DNA of 64,000 bases from Lepas anatifera (Eukaryota > Arthropoda > Thecostraca > Lepadidae): contig JAOTON010000206.1 in NCBI GenBank assembly GCA_034440635.1, forward strand, positions 62,001-126,000, given 5' to 3'. The notes beneath the pieces were generated by a model. That model saw only the letters and a program-made list of their open reading frames with translations. It did no database searches and had not been told where the DNA came from. Every line of letters starts with the position of its first letter. Position 1 is the first letter of the stretch. Position numbers and translations under genes: made by a program. Of this stretch, positions 1,236 through 18,197 are shown piece by piece.

Positions 1236-2122
1236 ACGAAAAATATATGATGACCCAATGAGTACAAGGCCAGTCATTATATTATGTCGGTTGATCTTAC
1301 TTTGAAAATTATAAACGCGCACTTGTGATTCGTATTTGTAATGATGGAATTTGACGTCATATGGTATGAAATAATCAAAACTGATTCCAAAGTTGAAAGC
1401 TGAATAGGGCTCATAAACTCACATATCTTCCATTCCATCATTTAGTACTGCTTCCGTGCTTCTGGGCTAAGTCCTAATATTCTGTTGGAGCTTTGAATCA
1501 GAAACCCGCCAGAATTATCTATTGGGTCAATTCCGCAAGTTTTTATATTTTAAGCAATAATGCGAGAGTCAATCGGGTCAGAACTTTTATTTTAACGGCA
1601 TTGTTTTCATTTTATCACTGCGTTGGACACCGGTATTCCAGTAATATCCCAGGACTTGCTCTAGAATAAATAAATAGGAAGCTAAAAGGTGACATGTTAG
1701 ATTTCTCCTTTATCATATTAATTTGTTTGGCTTCCCGTGACCTCAAGATTGACATGATGTTAAAGCAGGCATCGCAGGCCCATCGTTATTTTCAGAAGCC
1801 ATGGGACACCAATAGTTGTTTTCCATGCTCTTTACTTATATATGCCGGGTTTAGTTGGGGTTTTAACCCCCTCCGCGTACTCTGCGTGAAATGCGCAAAC
1901 CCACAATCATGCACGGGTGGAGCCCGTATTACCTTGGTGTTCCGCGTTATCTCCGCGTTATAGAAGGTCCAAAATGTGATAAGACAAAATATGAAATTAT
2001 CAGTCTCTACAATTCACCTATTACCCAGCGTTCGTAAAACAACTGAGTTTGTTTTCAGAAGATATTAAAAGACGGGTTTGTTTTTTTCAACGGTTTTTCA
2101 ACGAATGTTCAGAATACTTTAA
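1236..2122. other. No gene seen; AT-rich spacer before the LINE
   Basis: Both strands are broken into short frames. No RNA gene or terminal repeat was recognised. The right part may be the 5' untranslated region of the LINE that follows, but no boundary is visible. Confidence 0.4.
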
Positions 2123-2185
2123 GTGAAGTATACAGTCCAATGGAGAAATATACCAGACCTTATAACTTCCGATGACATCTATTTG

Positions 2186-3085
2186 ATGACAATGAAGACC
2201 GCTTTGCTTCTGTGCGTCATCGTGGCACGCTGGTGGACATCACCAACTGATCAGACCGACGCCTTCAGCTATAAAACATCCAGCATCGCCGCAGCTAGCA
2301 CTGCTTTAGACCCTCGGCGTCCAACTCAGCCGGCTAGATGTCCCAACAGCCCCCACAGGAGGTCTTTATTTCTCCGCCTACTCTTGCTAACAGCCGGAGA
2401 CGTGCATCCCCATCCAGGGCCCAATCCAGGGCAAAAGCCGACTAAGGCATGTCACCAGTGCTCAAGGGCTAACGCGAGAAAACGGACCATCCAGTGCAAC
2501 AGACGCAACAACTGGTTTCATCTATCATGCGTCCAGATCACGAAAGCCCAGGCAGCTGCCCTGGCACAGTGGTGGTGTCCCACTTGTATGGGCGCAGGCA
2601 ACAGCCCGCAGTCTACTCGGTTCCAGACACATGACTCAGCCATTGCAGAAAAACAAGTAAACGAAGCGTTAGCTGATGATATAGCCGAGCTGCGAAGCGG
2701 ATATCGAGTGATTCCAAGGATTCCCAAAGGAGCCAGAATCGCGGCAGCAGATGCTCTGGCAACGCTGATCACTACCGCTGCGAGGGAGAGGTCTGCAACT
2801 GCCTGGTCTCAGCTACTGAAGTTCCCACTACTGGCCCTGTCATTGCCGCCCAGAGCGGACACAATTTCTGACGAAACCTCTCTTACAACGAAAATAAAGC
2901 GTCAGGTTTCGGCATATATGGACACTGGAGACAATGTACTTGCAGTAAACAAGAAATCAGCATCAACGCGGTGACGTAGGAGACTGCAATCAACAGGCGA
3001 TATATTTCGTAGGCGAGTCGGCGCCAAACTCTGCGACGGCGATATCAAGGGTGCCCTAAGGATTCTGACGTCCAGCGATGAAGCG
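2186..3085 (+). pseudogene. LINE N-terminal region: 2A-like peptide and PHD finger
   Basis: The frame is open from 2123; the first ATGs are at 2186 and 2192, followed by a hydrophobic stretch (ALLLCVIVARWW). Around 2385-2420 it reads LLLLTAGDVHPHPGP, close to the ribosome-skipping 2A consensus D(V/I)ExNPGP, which is found near the N-terminus of many invertebrate LINEs. Here the Glu and the Asn of the consensus are both His, so activity is doubtful. A PHD-type zinc finger follows at about 2449-2592: CHQC, then C-x(6)-WFHLSC, then WWCPTC. Such fingers occur in several LINE N-termini and may bind histone tails. The frame runs on in phase into the RT, interrupted only by TGA at 2972-2974, which looks like CpG decay of an Arg codon. 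Confidence 0.75.
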
Positions 3086-3722
3086 GTGTCGCCGTCTGAA
3101 GAGACCATCTCCGGTCTCAGACTCAAGCACCCAGAAGCCCCCTCAGACCTGGAACTACCACAGTGCCCCGATGAGGGAGTGGAGCTGCCATTGAAGGTAT
3201 CTGAGGCCGAGATCATTGCTGTTATTTCTGCCTTCAACCCCGGCTCCAGTGGTGGCTTAGATGGCCTGCGTCCGGCGCACCTCAAATATCTCACCGGCAA
3301 CTCAGCAGGTGAGGCTGGCGTGCGTCTGGTCTCGGCGCTCACAGGTCTGGTTGACCAAGTCCTGCTAGGCGAGTTGCCGGCTGCAGCACGGGACATATTC
3401 TTCACGGCGTCACTGACCGCTTTGAGGAAGACTGATGGTGGTGTTCGACCTATAGCCGTCGGCTCTGTTTACAGAAGGCTGGCCACAAAAATTGCTCTCA
3501 AGCCTCTGACCGGAGAGCTCGGGCAGCAGCTACGGCCAGAGCAGCTCGGTTTTGGCACTCCAGGTGGCTGCGAGGCAGCAGCGCACGCGACCAGGCTCTT
3601 CATACAGAATATGAGTAAGGACGAAGTACTTGTTAAAATAGACATGAAGAATGCATTTAATTCAATCCGCCGAGACAGCTTTCTTCGAGTCGTCCGTGCC
3701 CGCGCTCCGTCCTTGTACCGAC
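3086..3722 (+). pseudogene. Reverse transcriptase, N-terminal half
   Basis: In the same frame as the N-terminal region, this part reads the fingers and start of the palm of an RT. Blocks include GSSGGLDGLRPAHLK, GGVRPIAVGSVYRRLATK, EQLGFGTPGGCEAAAHA and motif A, KIDMKNAFNS, with its catalytic Asp at 3641-3643. Reverse transcription would be primed at a nicked target. The frame is cut at SLYR (about 3720) by an insertion flanked by GTACCGAC at 3715-3722 and 5443-5450. RT homology resumes right after it. Confidence 0.85.
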
Positions 3723-4041
3723 CAGGGCAGTTGAATAACGGGTACTTCAAAGTTTTGTACCCAAAGTGATCAGAATCATAGTTTAGTACCAGTTTTAGTA
3801 TAGTATACTAGGAATATGCCAAAAATAATACTAGTTTAGTACATTGATATAAGGTAAACACAAACGGCTGCAGCTGGTGACTGTGGTATTTGTTTGTACC
3901 CAAAACAGGATGGAGAAGCAGTGCATCACATATGCTATTCGAATTATTTTTCGTGTTGTTTTGTCATGTCGGTATTGAGCAGAGGTGCGATGTCGGCCAG
4001 TAGCGTACGCGACCAGTAAATTAATACGACTACGTAGCAGG

Positions 4042-5060
4042 CATAAGCGGATCCAGGGTCGCAGATCGGAGGGGCATGTTACGGGGGGCGCCATCCAGAT
4101 CAAGGGGGCGGCACTTTTGGCCGGCAAAACCTATCATGTGTATGTCAAATTCTATAGCGGCGCGCCGATTCTTGCATCGGGGGGAGGGGGTGCGGTGACA
4201 TTTCAGGGGGCACCATCGACCCCACAGAGCACCGCCATGAACATTTGAGAGGACGCCGAGGGTTGATTCATTGTCCCTTTTATTAGGACAGGGGCGGATC
4301 TAGGCCATACGTTTGGGGAAGGCAATCTCAGGAAACATTGCGAACATGGTGTCGTTTCGATGACAATCGGCTGAAAGTGGGTACAATTCAGCCACTTTGG
4401 GGACCATGGCAGGTGCGGATGCAGAATTTTCTCAAAAAGAGGCTCGGTTTTCAATTGTAGGGGCCCCCGCTCGTGGTTTTCATTTTTCATAAATTGGGCG
4501 TTAAAAGTGAATAAATCATCAGGGTGGTGTGTATTTAAACGTAGTTATTAAATAAAGTTTGATACTTTTGGGGGACTCCAGGCCAGCTATTGGGACCCCC
4601 GAGACCAGTATCCGTGGCGTTTGGGCTCCTTGAATTTACCTAAGAAACGCCCACTGAACATAAAGGGAGCCCCCTGCTTCATAGGCGGATCCAGAATTAC
4701 CAATCAGGGGAGGGGGCGCCATCCGTTCCGGGGGGCACCATTTTTGAACGGTAAAATCTATCAGGTGGGCGGAAAATTCTATCGGTAGGCACCGATTTTC
4801 GCATCCTGGTGGGGATAGGAAGCGACATTTTAGGGGGCACCATCGACCCCTCAGGGGGCGCCGTGACCATTTCAGGGGGTGGCGAGGGTCGATCGGGGGG
4901 GCACGTTTCCCCCTTGTCCCCCCTGGATCCGCCTATGCCCTGCGGAGGGCCTTTTGTCGTGCTCAAGGCCAGGCTAACGGTACGCGGTCGCCCTCATCAC
5001 CTACCATCCCCTTAGATCCGCCCCTGGAACATGACGTATTTACTGCTGGATCCGCCTCTG
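4042..5060. mobile_element. Nested small elements with GGCGGATCC-type ends
   Basis: A left end, CATAAGCGGATCCAG (4042), and a possible right end, CTGGATCCGCCTCTG (5046-5060), may belong to one member of the CATAGGCGGATCC family. Inside lies CAGGGGCGGATCTAGG (4289) ending CCTTAGATCCGCCCCTG (5026), and inside that the intact member at 4680-4937. I found no convincing target duplications for the two outer layers, so the nesting order is inferred. Confidence 0.45.
4680..4937 (+). mobile_element. MITE of the CATAGGCGGATCCAG family
   Basis: A 258-bp element has exact 15-bp terminal inverted repeats, CATAGGCGGATCCAG and CTGGATCCGCCTATG. The 8 bp on each side (CCCTGCTT and CCCTGCGG) match at 6 of 8 positions, consistent with a hAT-type duplication. 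The interior is G-rich with repeated GGGGGCACCAT/GGCGCC blocks. Related copies are at 20999-21272, 21698-21937 and 58246-58501. It has no coding capacity. Confidence 0.8.
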
Positions 5061-5064
5061 CACT

Positions 5065-5290
5065 AGGCAAAAGCATCCCTTAGAGCTAAAAGCATGAAGG
5101 GCGCAAAGTTGCATGAATTTCAAGCGAATACATTGTGTTTTGCACATTCGGACTTTATGAAAAGTTTGGCCGCTTCTAGGATTCGAACCCACGCCTGAAA
5201 ATGAAACCAAAACTTGGGACTGGTTTTCACCGTCTAGCTCTCTGGTTAATGTCACGGCTGGCGGTTTTGACCCCGGAAATGAAAAGAAAA
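5065..5290 (-). repeat. Possible tRNA-derived SINE fragment
   Basis: On the minus strand GGTTCGAATCC (5179-5189) is a perfect RNA polymerase III B-box, with an A-box-like stretch about 85 bp upstream (around 5250-5265). The spacing is longer than in a true tRNA, and no acceptor stem forms. I read it as a SINE remnant inside the insertion. Confidence 0.35.
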
Positions 5291-5450
5291 ATGTCCTGGC
5301 GTCCATTTGAACTGCTTTTCGTGAACCTGCGCGTGGTTTAAGATACCCTCCCGAGGCTCTAGATTGCAAGCTTTTAACATGTGTTCCCTATGGACTAGTC
5401 GAAAATGCCAGCCGTTTAGTAGGAAAAACTTTGAGCCCCCCGGTACCGAC

Positions 5451-6971
5451 TAATGTGGCAATGCATCCAACTCCTCTTTATTTTGGCACCACCAAGATAA
5501 TGTCATCCACGGGTCTGCAGCAGGGTGATCCCGCCGGTCCTGCCGTTTTCTCTCTGGCAATAGACGCGGCGGCACGGGGGAGTTGTGCAGCATTTAACTC
5601 CTGGTATCTGGATGATGGGACTATTGGTGGAAATGTGCACGCTGTCCGTCAAGACATTGAGCGCATTATTCCGGCTTTATCCAACCTGGGTCTAGAAGTA
5701 AATAATGAAAAGTGTGAAATTTTTATATCCAACTCAATCCCGGAATCAGAGCAACAAGTTAGCACTGCCAGGCTGCACCGCCAGTTACCAGGAGCTGCTG
5801 TAAATCCCATGCCCATTATGTTGGGTGTACCTATCACAGCCGCAGCTACTGAGACAGTGATTACAACGAAGGCCAATGATTTACAACGGATGATAGACAG
5901 GCTGCAGTACGTAGACGCCCACTCTGCACTGTTTTTGTTGAAGAACTGCTTGGGGATCCCGAGGTTACAGTACTTGCTTCGTGCCGCGCCCGTGTACCGC
6001 CAGCCCGACATACTGGAGCCGATTGACGACATGGTGAAATCGGCTGTAACCAGCACCACCAATGTGCGGTTTGACGCCAATAATTGGCAGCAGGCTGTTC
6101 TCCCTACCAGATACGGCGGCCTGGGCCTGCGACGTACAGTAGATCTAGCGCTACCCAGCTATGTGGCATCTCTCCACCATTGCCTGCAGCTGGTGGCGTC
6201 GATTTTGCCCGAAAAGGTGCGCCCTCGTCTGTCAGCCGAGCAGAAAATGGCCGTGGCTGCCTGGCAGGTTGCGGCAGACGGGGAGGAGCCGCCGGCAGAT
6301 GAAGCTTCCCGAAATCAGCGCGCTTGGAACTCTGTGCTGGCTGAAAAGTCCCGCTCTTTACTCCTAGCTGCTGCCAACCAGCTGGATCATGCCCGTCTTC
6401 TGGCAGCTGGCACTTCGGAAAGTAGCGCTTGGCTCCAAGCCCTACCATCGGCCAATTTAGGTACGCTTTTAGACCCCGAAACATTGAGAATCGCTGTGGC
6501 GCTGCGAGTCGGTGCCCATGTGTGCGAGCCACACATATGCCGATGTGGAACACAGGCGGACAGCAGAGGGCATCATACCTCGACCTGTCGTTTCAGTGCG
6601 GGCCGCCATCCCCGTCACACCGCACTGAACGATGTTGTCAGGCGGGCTCTACAAGCCGCCGGCATCCCCTCTATTCTCGAACCCACTGGCGTGGACCGAG
6701 GTGATGGCAGGCGACCGGACGGCATGACGGTGTTTCCGTACGCAGAGGGGAAGTCGTTGGTGTGGGACGCCACCTGCATCAACACATATGCAGCTTCTCA
6801 CCTGCTGGCCGCCGCCAGCGCTGCCGGCGCAGCAGCCAAGGCAGTGGAAGCCGCCAAAGTGAGGAAATATTCCTCACTTTCAGACCGCCATATAGTTCAG
6901 CCTGTTGCCTTCGAAACCAGCGGGGCCTGTGGCCCAGCAACAAAGTCTTTCCTGCGCCAGCTGGTGCCAAG
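5451..6971 (+). pseudogene. RT C-terminal half, zinc knuckle and REL endonuclease
   Basis: After a one-base frame change near 5460-5470 the RT resumes at HPTPLYFG. It continues through STGLQQGDPAGPAVF (motif B) and WYLDDGT with the catalytic YLDD at 5605-5616, then the thumb region. A zinc knuckle follows at about 6538-6600 (CRC, then HHTSTC). Next is the restriction-like endonuclease: RRPDG (6709-6723) and LVWDATC with its Asp at about 6765-6767, the PD...D pattern of R2-type nucleases. This enzyme nicks the target to prime reverse transcription. A one-base deletion near 6972 shifts the frame; the other frame carries the conserved tail. Confidence 0.85.
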
Positions 6972-8194
6972 TTGCGCACAGCAACCGGTGACCCGCGGGA
7001 GATGGCCTGGCTGTGGCAGCGACTGGCGGCGGCGGTGGTAAGAGGGAACGCAGCTTGTGTGCGACTCACAAGTAATTTCTCACCCGTCAGCGATGTTTCA
7101 TTCGGGCTAAAAGAAGGAAAAGAAGAAAGGTCACAGAAGAGTTCGGAGTGTAAATTACGACTGTCACCATTGCCGGCCGGCGTCACTGGCCTAGAGAATC
7201 TTGGAAATACTTGCTACATGAACGTTGTATTTCAGGTTTTAGCGTATACTAATGATTTTGTCCATCATATCACGAGTGGCCTGTACCGAGAGGACCTGAA
7301 TTCACGGTCCTCAACTCGCGGTGACATTGCTGAGGAAACACTGAGGAAACAGCGCGTCTCCTGGTAATTATTTGGTCGCAGAAATATCCGTTTGTGTCGC
7401 CACACATGATCCGTGATGTGGTTCGTGCCCATCGAAGTGAATTCGGTGAAGACCGCATGCATGACGCACATGAGTTTCTGCTGTTTCTGCTGGAATGGCT
7501 ACATGAAGATTTGAATGCTGCTGCTCATGCCGAAAAACCTTTACCAGTCCCCAAATAATTGGATGGTTACAGCGCTGGTGATATTGCCTGGCATCAGTTC
7601 TGTCAGGCAAACGATTCAATCATATCCCGGCTTTTCTATGGGCAGGAAAAGTCTGTGCTTCTCTGCACCTTTTGCAGCTACGAATCTGTCACGTTCGAGA
7701 ACTTTACTCTGCTGTCGTTAGCGCTGCCTCCAAATCCGGACCCGCTGGCACAAATCAGTCTTCACCAATGTATCCAGCAGTATATGCATGGCGATTCCAT
7801 TTCAGGCTGGACATGTTCAAATTGTCAGCGGCAACAGGACACCTACAAGAAGTTTGACATGGAGCGACTGCCACCTGTGGTGATTATACACCTGAAGCGG
7901 TTTTCCTACAGCGAAAACGCCTTACACAAGACAAAGACGCATGTTTCTTTCCCTCTTAGTGACCTTGATCTCAGTATAATGGTTAGCAGGCCTTCGCAGT
8001 TCTCTGGCAGCTTTGTATATAGTCTGTACGCTGTAGTAGAACACCATGGCAGCGCCCAGACCGGCCACTACACCGCCTTCTGCTGGAACCAGCCAGCCGC
8101 ACGTTGGCACCGAATGGACGATGGTTCTGTAATGGAAGTGCCGGCCGCAAAAGTAAAGACGGCATCGGCCTACCTACTTTGCTATGCCGCCTGA
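6972..8194 (+). pseudogene. Endonuclease tail fused to a USP8/USP2-like ubiquitin protease domain
   Basis: One frame, open from before 6972 to 7367, contains both the LINE's conserved C-terminal tail (TGDPREMAWLWQRL, VVRGNAACV) and, after a linker of about 40 residues, the USP Cys box GLENLGNTCYMN with its catalytic Cys codon at 7212-7214. After a frame change near 7350 the domain continues with DAHEFLLFLLEWLHEDLN. It then meets a stop at 7556-7558 and runs on in phase: two CxxC pairs (CTFC, CSNC), LPPVVIIHLKRFSY, and the His box TGHYTAFC (His codon 8066-8068) followed by WHRMDDG. All three triad positions (Cys, His, Asp) are visible. It ends at a TGA at 8192-8194. USPs remove ubiquitin from proteins; the blocks look most like the USP8/USP2 group. 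A processed host pseudogene is the alternative, but the shared frame argues for fusion. Confidence 0.8.
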
Positions 8195-9121
8195 GATGTG
8201 CCACAATGCGCACGTGGTGAAATCTAGGTGTGTTAGGATTTCAAATAATTTTATTGTCTGCAAATAATCAATGGGTGAAATGTTCCTTTACATATTAAGT
8301 CAGTTGGATGAAATGTACCTATGAATGTAATGTGCCTACCATTGACGAGTGAATGACCTTCAGATTTATTGCTTTCTGTACTGATGGAGAGCTGACCTGC
8401 TTTTTTGATCGAAAACACATTTATCAGGTGCACGGGTTAAAAACTGTTCAAGGAAGAGATTTTGCGAATAATTCGGAATATTCTTGTCCAAAATCACACA
8501 AAAACGTATGCTAGCGTATATCACATATGATTTGCCCCGGGGCATAGCTGTTCTGCAGAACACTACCAAATTCAAATATCGATATTTCAGAAATTTTACA
8601 AGTCTCCGCCTTTCTTGTTTGCACACATGTAGTCAATGGCTAAGTAAGTCACATGCTAATATTTCAAGCCATTTGAAACAGGCAAAACTAGTAAAAAAAC
8701 GCATTCATAAAATTTGACCTAGTCAGGTCAAAGGTCAAATATGGGTCACATCCAATTTGAGTCCAGTTTCAGAATGGTGAAGCATTTGACTTACATTGGA
8801 AACAATTTGGTCATCAAAATTTCGTAAACATCAGAACTATATGTGCTTGATTTAAGCCAAGTCGGCGAAAACGCGTGACCTTTGATGACCTCTAGATTTG
8901 ACCTCAAGCCCTGCTCCAGACTGAAATTTCATGTGTGACGCTTTTTCATATGGTACTACAAGTGCACCAATTTTCATCAAGTTGTGAGGGGGTCGAGTAC
9001 GAAAATGCCATTTTTTGATCGATTTGACGCGGAATGACCCACAAGTAACCGAAATAATGTTCCCGAGATTGCTTGCAGCGATTTAGCTCTGGGATGTTTT
9101 GGGGAAAGTGTTTGACTTGGC
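8195..9121. other. No gene; possible LINE 3' UTR, then TGACC/GGTCA-rich DNA
   Basis: AT-rich sequence without a long frame. Positions about 8714-8905 carry several GGTCA/TGACC words (for example CAGGTCAAAGGTCA), as in the TTAA elements further on, but no terminal repeat was found. The end of the LINE cannot be placed. Confidence 0.35.
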
Positions 9122-9136
9122 AACACCGGCCGTATT

Positions 9137-9620
9137 ACCACCGTGGTGGCACAGTTGGTTAAGGCGTCGCCGTTGTATGTGGGAGGTCCCTGGATCAAAG
9201 CTGACCTCTGGGAGACTTTTCCTCGACCGCCTCCTACCCAGGAGATGGCTGCAAACTGGGTAGTGCTTGCCTTGACACGGGAGTTTCGCTGACCAACCAG
9301 CGTCCTTGTTATTGGCAGCACGGGCCTGATCAGCCTTTAAATAGATCCACCGGTCCGGTGGCGCGCCCCGAGGGCACGGCCTCGCTTTGTGTCACCGGAG
9401 CAGTCCTCTGCTCCGCCGGGCCCGAGAAATTGGGATAGCCTCTCCGTGTCATACGGTGGGGTATGTGAAAGGGAGCGTGCGGGCACGACTGTCCCGCAAG
9501 GGTGCCGATAAATGAAAACATCTGCCGTGTACATAGTGTGACTGTGTGTATATGTGGTGCAAATATGTAGAAATGTCCCCAGGTCGGGGACGCAAAAATT
9601 AAAATTAAAAAAGGAAAAAA
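9137..9620 (+). mobile_element. 484-bp tRNA-derived SINE with exact 15-bp target duplication
   Basis: The element is bracketed by AACACCGGCCGTATT at 9122-9136 and 9621-9635. Its first 70 bp look like a tRNA: an A-box-like TGGCACAGTTGGTTAAGG (about 9142-9159) and a degenerate B-box region (GGATCAAAGC, about 9191). A GC-rich body follows, then an A-rich tail (AAAATTAAAATTAAAAAAGG). It would be transcribed by RNA polymerase III and mobilised by a LINE. The exact duplication means a fairly recent insertion. The body is long for a SINE and could be composite. Confidence 0.8.
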
Positions 9621-18017: not shown

Positions 18018-18197
18018 GGGGGCGCGGTAGTGGAGTGGTCAGCGTAGCTGTCTGCCACGCAGCCGACCCGGGTTCAAAGCCCGGCGGCTTCCCTGAACAA
18101 GGAGCAAGCTGGCTCCCGAGAAACCCTTCCAACAGGGAAAGAGTTGGCGACGCGATATGACCCTGGCAGTTGGTGCGTCGATAAACCCCAATAATAA
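18018..18197 (+). mobile_element. tRNA-derived SINE (family 1), copy 2
   Basis: Flanked by ACACTCAAACGTT at 18005-18017 and 18198-18210, and inserted in N1 copy 2. The head has GTGGAGTGGTCAGCG and a B-box GGGTTCAAAGCC in a T-arm-like stem; the tail is AATAATAA. It is closely similar to the copy at 14340-14525. The uninterrupted target is visible in N1 copy 1 near 16510. Confidence 0.9.

Follow-up and report, generated by a model that had tools for sequence, protein, structure and literature searches.

The window, a stretch of 64,000 nucleotides from Lepas anatifera, contains one damaged plus-strand copy of a PHD-RT-REL LINE (1964-8416), the protein of which is extended at its C-terminal end by a ubiquitin-specific protease (USP, family C19). 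As the earlier note had proposed, this is almost certainly a mobile LINE fused to a USP: the junction is shared among copies, open fused frames exist and fused relatives occur in other sources. The same note had suggested the capture of a host deubiquitinase, and the USP domain is indeed of host origin; going beyond that suggestion, several host families are involved, and it is very probable that their USPs were captured repeatedly and exchanged between LINE lineages. The whole explanation, a mobile PHD-RT-REL LINE with a C-terminal USP in which captured host USPs are passed on as a cassette reaching from REL to the stop codon, can be given with good confidence. It is carried by the fusion in multiple copies, the open fused frames, the fold and triad of the USP, purifying selection on it and the several USP types found in one slot.

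The features of the window copy are the following:

1964..8416, + strand: LINE copy with USP domain, 5'-truncated and split by an insertion (blastn against 20 fetched copies)
2450..2587, + strand: PHD finger (PF00628, E 1.4e-7)
3425..3700, + strand: reverse transcriptase, first part (PF00078, E 1.5e-8)
3723..5442, no strand assigned: 1.72 kb insertion, flanked by GTACCGAC at 3715-3722 and 5443-5450
5491..5727, + strand: reverse transcriptase, second part, with YLDD (PF00078, E 8.3e-7, just below the family cut-off)
6520..7062, + strand: CCHC motif and REL endonuclease (RPDG, WDATC) with the VVRGNAACV end, read by motif and from the columns of alignment A1; a frameshift lies within
7063..7169, + strand: linker from REL to USP
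7170..7364, + strand: USP N-terminal part with the catalytic Cys at 7212-7214 (Pfam UCH, PF00443, profile 1-32, E 2.4e-7)
7559..8194, + strand: USP C-terminal part with CxxC pairs, His at 8066-8068, Asp at 8117-8119 and the stop codon (PF00443, profile 109-254, E 1.4e-35; top PDB match USP8, E 4e-42)
8195..8416, + strand: 3' UTR without poly(A), the end points of which differ among copies

The open frame 6705-7367 (+) comprises TGDPREMAWLWQRL, VVRGNAACV, a stop-free linker and then the USP Cys box GLENLGNTCYMN, and the frame 7559-8194 holds the remainder of the USP up to TGHYTAFC. The uninterrupted run from the REL end into the Cys box, the later boxes and the three triad codons, all read from the sequence, are present in the window as first described. 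The element start was placed too late at 5451, since the window copy begins at 1964 and other copies reach further upstream. Besides the insertion, its lesions are in-frame stops just after 2971 and just before 7559, a frameshift near 6955-6975 and an 11-base duplication near 7335-7355.

The insertion is missing in all 10 fetched copies that align across that point, L017 among them. L009 matches the window at 1401-3722 and 5443-9000, flanks included, without the 1.72 kb, and is probably the other haplotype of the window site. With its 8-bp flanking repeats the insertion is perhaps a non-autonomous hAT-like element, and GDVHPHPGPNPG at 2396-2431, near the protein start, presumably resembles a 2A ribosome-skipping motif. 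Downstream of the copy, a stretch with a tRNA-like box (GTGGCACAGTTGGTTAAGGCGTC) lies at 9141-9220, perhaps a tRNA-derived SINE, with no ARAGORN call there; ARAGORN identified a tRNA-Gly (gcc) at 18021-18093.

Further copies were identified when the window's own genome (1.04 Gb in 2126 contigs) was searched at the DNA level with 7000-8194, a genome search having been proposed in the earlier note. With the best 40 of 905 candidates scored, at least 42 match rows were obtained at 90-100% identity. Among the matches listed, 27 of the 41 non-window rows span the junction (from query base 9 or lower to 409 or higher) and include the linker with the REL end before it and the Cys box after it. One of the 27 is the other haplotype of the window site, and the remaining rows start further in, like 5'-truncated copies. 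Copies ending at the endonuclease without the USP had been named as evidence that would speak against the fusion, and none of the fetched copies of the window family ends there.

Of the 20 fetched copies only L016 has an uninterrupted frame (640 codons) reaching from REL as far as the stop of the USP. Compared with this frame, the other 19 and the window copy each contain at least one stop or indel, the mildest being L018 and L027 with one stop each and no indel. A frame-changing indel falls within the linker in 8 of 20 copies: L010, L012, L013 and L019 have a common one-base deletion that shifts the USP to another frame, L015 has an indel near it, and L014, L023 and L025 have different ones. 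The USP link is thus often broken in old copies, or else a subfamily reads the other frame; in the subfamily with the one-base deletion the USP could be a separate open frame, or the deletion could be decay.

A protein search of the same genome with the L016 frame (69 of 2400 candidates scored) gave at least 95 match rows at 44-100% identity, including members of related families. L029 is a single frame of 1445 codons with the order PHD-RT-REL-USP, in which Pfam identified PHD at 23-68 (1.5e-5), RVT_1 at 369-562 (1.7e-15, with FLDD in the RT) and UCH at 1110-1439 (7.6e-62); the UCH match of L016 has E 8.1e-59. Both profiles that the earlier note had suggested running, PF00443 and RT, are found in one frame. 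The first ATG of L029 is codon 217 or 218, downstream of the PHD finger, and this was counted against the reading as a fused element. The L030 frame is 1403 codons long and has ATG as its second codon; its RT motif is YLYD. A USP match lies downstream in 16 of the 17 REL matches of at least 95% to L029 (L029 included); the exception is C629:1687074, with no USP downstream of REL among the matches listed.

The copies are dispersed over many genome sites and their 5' ends are variable. The left and right flanks have a word of at least 9 bp in common in 7 of 18 copies, compared with 4 of 306 pairs of mismatched flanks; for words of at least 8 bp the figures are 8 of 18 and 25 of 306 (L009 and L013 were left out). 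Candidate target-site duplications were thus found in 7 of 18 copies, the other 11 having no word of 9 bp or more, and in some copies the common word lies tens of bases away from the element edge. The 3' ends are irregular and have no poly(A), and 7 of 21 rows (window included) have one common end point, the others ending elsewhere. As to LINE membership, PF00078 matches two pieces of the window copy as well as L029, and in PDB the relatives P0015 and P0017 have matches to R2 proteins. REL is recognised by motif alone, RPDG and WDxTC being invariant and the C/C/H/C positions nearly so in the 41 chosen rows of A1; no Pfam profile matched the REL part of L029. Target-primed reverse transcription is the insertion route of R2 (described in excerpts of PMC12503042), and RT and REL would insert the present element in the same way.

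Relatives in other sources were searched among 5.8 billion proteins (7995 candidates scored, 120 of 177 hits listed). Several are short metagenome contigs or gene models, and single rows may be chimeric. Fused relatives include P0003 and P0008, with 98% and 97% query coverage. Among the matches listed, the source known by name in which a single protein has both REL and USP is the barnacle Amphibalanus amphitrite (P0014, P0111). In a second barnacle, Pollicipes pollicipes, a type-A USP belongs to a protein that has no REL (P0005); the USP8 N-terminal exon of this barnacle and that of the source genome are 64% identical. A UCH match was identified in 16 of the 41 chosen proteins of A1. Lepidopteran RT-REL proteins are related, and 9 of the 11 named rows with the RGNA motif stop no more than 44 residues past it; P0112 and P0114 extend 102 and 81 residues beyond it, with no UCH match among those listed. 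USP-less elements share a C-terminal motif, DPxxDPELARYL, found in the tails of L034 and L035 of the source genome and in P0007, P0019, P0025 and others.

The slot is occupied by USP8 (type A), USP2 (type B), USP35-like (type C) or USP37-like (type D) domains, and in some relatives by none. Type A comprises the window, L029, L030, P0001-P0004, P0005, P0012, P0016 and P0121. In the USP tree of 41 rows (P0008 of type C left out; P0122 and P0123 missed by the Cys-box pattern) these form one clade (100/100) beside USP8 (83/76); the earlier note had suggested a tree with USP8 and USP2. The five type-B rows (P0010, P0014, P0017, P0024 and P0034) form a single clade (99/98) within USP2 beside a copepod USP2, four of them filling less than half of the columns. 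Another USP8 is found in P0125, sister to barnacle host USP8 (100/100), where a charged, coiled-coil-like stretch precedes the USP. Type D is one clade (100/100). P0008 is closest to USP35 (175.7 vs 71.7 bits), and P0015 contains a fifth, incomplete USP (type E). Type D matched Amphibalanus proteins named USP37-like and nothing else close in that search, so that its USP37 identity rests on source names.

All five type-B proteins and P0015 stop before the His box, so that among the proteins examined no LINE had a type-B or type-E USP in full; their shortness may come from broken contigs, gene models or decay. Type D is represented in the source genome by L031-L033 (the end of L032 is broken). 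No type-B LINE copies were found there among the matches listed (150 of 466 candidates scored), the search showing host USP2 exons (C1950, C1751) and type-A-like USPs. In P0014, at about residues 489-550, a type-D Cys box directly precedes the type-B USP; this double box may have been left by a cassette replacement or may be an artefact of the gene model.

A processed pseudogene of a host USP that adjoins a LINE by chance, which the earlier note had set out as the alternative and which the broken window copy and its resemblance to USP8 might suggest, was rejected as next to impossible because 27 of the 41 other match rows, in differently truncated copies, span the same junction, fused frames of 640 and 1445 codons are open, and type A is a clade distinct from host USP8.

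The USP domain has the fold and the catalytic residues of its family. The AF2 model of the L029 USP (best of five; pLDDT 81.1, pTM 0.84) has USP8 3n3k as top Foldseek match (TM 0.89/0.86). Among 26 USPs chosen for reaching the His box, with six proteins that end before it left out, His is present in all 26, and Cys as well as Asp/Asn in 25 each. Selection was compared over 19 copies, the window copy and L025 being dropped. Singleton changes have an omega of 0.90 in REL and 0.84 in the USP, near neutral as expected after insertion, and changes common to at least two copies have 0.40 and 0.43; the Fisher p values for shared against singleton changes are 0.062 (REL), 0.046 (USP) and 0.035 (linker), these being modest tests. 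The comparisons among L016, L029 and L030, for which synonymous sites in REL have reached saturation, gave USP omegas of 0.17, 0.13 and 0.18 at dS 1.3-2.4. The L031/L033 pair has an omega of 0.36 for the USP and, at dS 3.2, one of 0.11 for REL. Judged from these substitution patterns, purifying selection on the USP is supported, in line with the earlier note's proposal that the domain was selected while the element was active.

These values also bear on whether the USP is a passenger or structural part whose catalysis is irrelevant. Many copies are broken, related lineages exist without a USP and the type-B proteins are cut before the His box, all of which would agree with such a part; it is nevertheless improbable given the nearly complete triad in the USPs that reach the His box and an omega of 0.13-0.18 between families.

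Exchange between LINE lineages is indicated by setting the USP types, assigned before any REL tree existed, against a REL tree built from 62 rows (of the short-tailed rows the first 22 were used; P0111, P0114 and P0059 were dropped). The fewest tail-state changes on this tree are 16, and REL monophyly was rejected for type A (lnL 341 lower), type B (485) and type D (206), each at p < 1e-60. L029 and P0014 share 78% REL identity, yet one has a type-A and the other a type-B USP. Conversely, one USP clade unites the window, L029 and L030 (99/98) and a second unites L031 and L033 (100/100), yet in the REL tree L029 and L030 fall into separate large sections. L031 and L033 are 63% identical in REL (dS 3.16) and 78% identical in the USP (dS 0.44). 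At the DNA level their identity is roughly 0.60 as far as the end of REL, rises to about 0.83 between the linker and a point close to the stop, and falls to about 0.45 thereafter; L029 against L030 has the same shape, with about 0.5, 0.7 and 0.4 for REL, linker plus USP and 3' UTR. The cassette borders are sharp in these two pairs. Exchange is not universal, since several cross-species type-A pairs have a REL identity above that of the USP, for example P0002/P0003 with 77% vs 57% (P0001 is absent from this comparison).

Repeated independent capture alone, with no exchange between LINE lineages, would account for the several host families involved (USP8 twice, USP2, USP35-like and USP37-like), and two captures from one donor retrogene could mimic the picture of a single pair. 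It is unlikely, to much the same degree as the passenger reading, against the finding that the type A, B and D USPs each form one clade and their RELs do not, and against L031/L033 with a recent shared USP on old RELs.

As to function, the USP would be an active enzyme that, tethered to the RT, strips ubiquitin in cis off the protein or RNP of the element itself, which would thereby resist host degradation. Such cis-protection has about an even chance of being the function, as far as sequence can indicate. USPs with different native partners occupy the same slot, and a generic tethered activity therefore fits better than one host substrate. The broader picture, a C-terminal slot into which deubiquitinases are captured and traded in an arms race, with tethered deubiquitination shielding the RNP from ubiquitin-dependent restriction, may be right with equal probability.

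The main rival to cis-protection is a chromatin role beside the PHD finger, which would read histones while the USP deubiquitinates H2A/H2B and so opens the DNA to REL and RT. The presence of a PHD finger and a USP within one protein is consistent with it, and the structural matches include the histone deubiquitinases USP21 and SAGA Ubp8, ranked after USP8, USP15 and USP2. Against it, PHD is also found in relatives without a UCH match (P0022, P0054, P0056, P0057 and P0075), and the nearest hosts of types A (USP8) and C (USP35) are not known as histone deubiquitinases. The chromatin role is thus possible but doubtful, although clearly better placed than the alternatives above, and cis-protection is preferred.

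LINEs with an Ulp1-like protease are already in print: NeSL and Utopia-1_TSP non-LTR retrotransposons carry it at the N-terminus (excerpts of PMC4640811). The earlier note had named NeSL and Utopia elements for such proteases; its mention of OTU domains in other elements was not confirmed. They resemble the window LINE in being REL-type, in their RT and in having captured a cysteine protease of the ubiquitin-like system, and differ in their Ulp1-like, N-terminal protease; the window LINE has a C-terminal USP instead, for which several types occur and pass between lineages. The Pfam search of L029 placed PHD at the N-terminus and UCH at the C-terminus and gave no Ulp1-type profile. TRAS LINEs of Lepidoptera, which carry a viral SF1 RNA helicase, are similar in that an accessory enzyme domain was added to a LINE protein; the enzyme and its viral source are different, and exchange of alternative domains is not described in the accessible part of that work (PMC6338049). 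The likeness to USP8, USP2, USP35 and USP37 (C19) is one of sequence, extended to fold for type A and given by source names only for USP37; unlike host USP8, the window-type USP is joined to a reverse transcriptase and has none of that protein's further domains. Among the titles and abstracts listed from the open-access literature, preprints excluded, none described a USP-bearing LINE, and the available portions of two barnacle genome papers (PMC9582164, PMC11331182) make no mention of LINE-borne USPs.

Some barnacle genes annotated as USP2, USP11 or USP37 are LINE frames or maybe LINE-derived. If the explanation is true, these elements would serve as a natural experiment for asking if retrotransposition is limited by ubiquitin, with related RELs that carry different USPs or none as ready test pairs.
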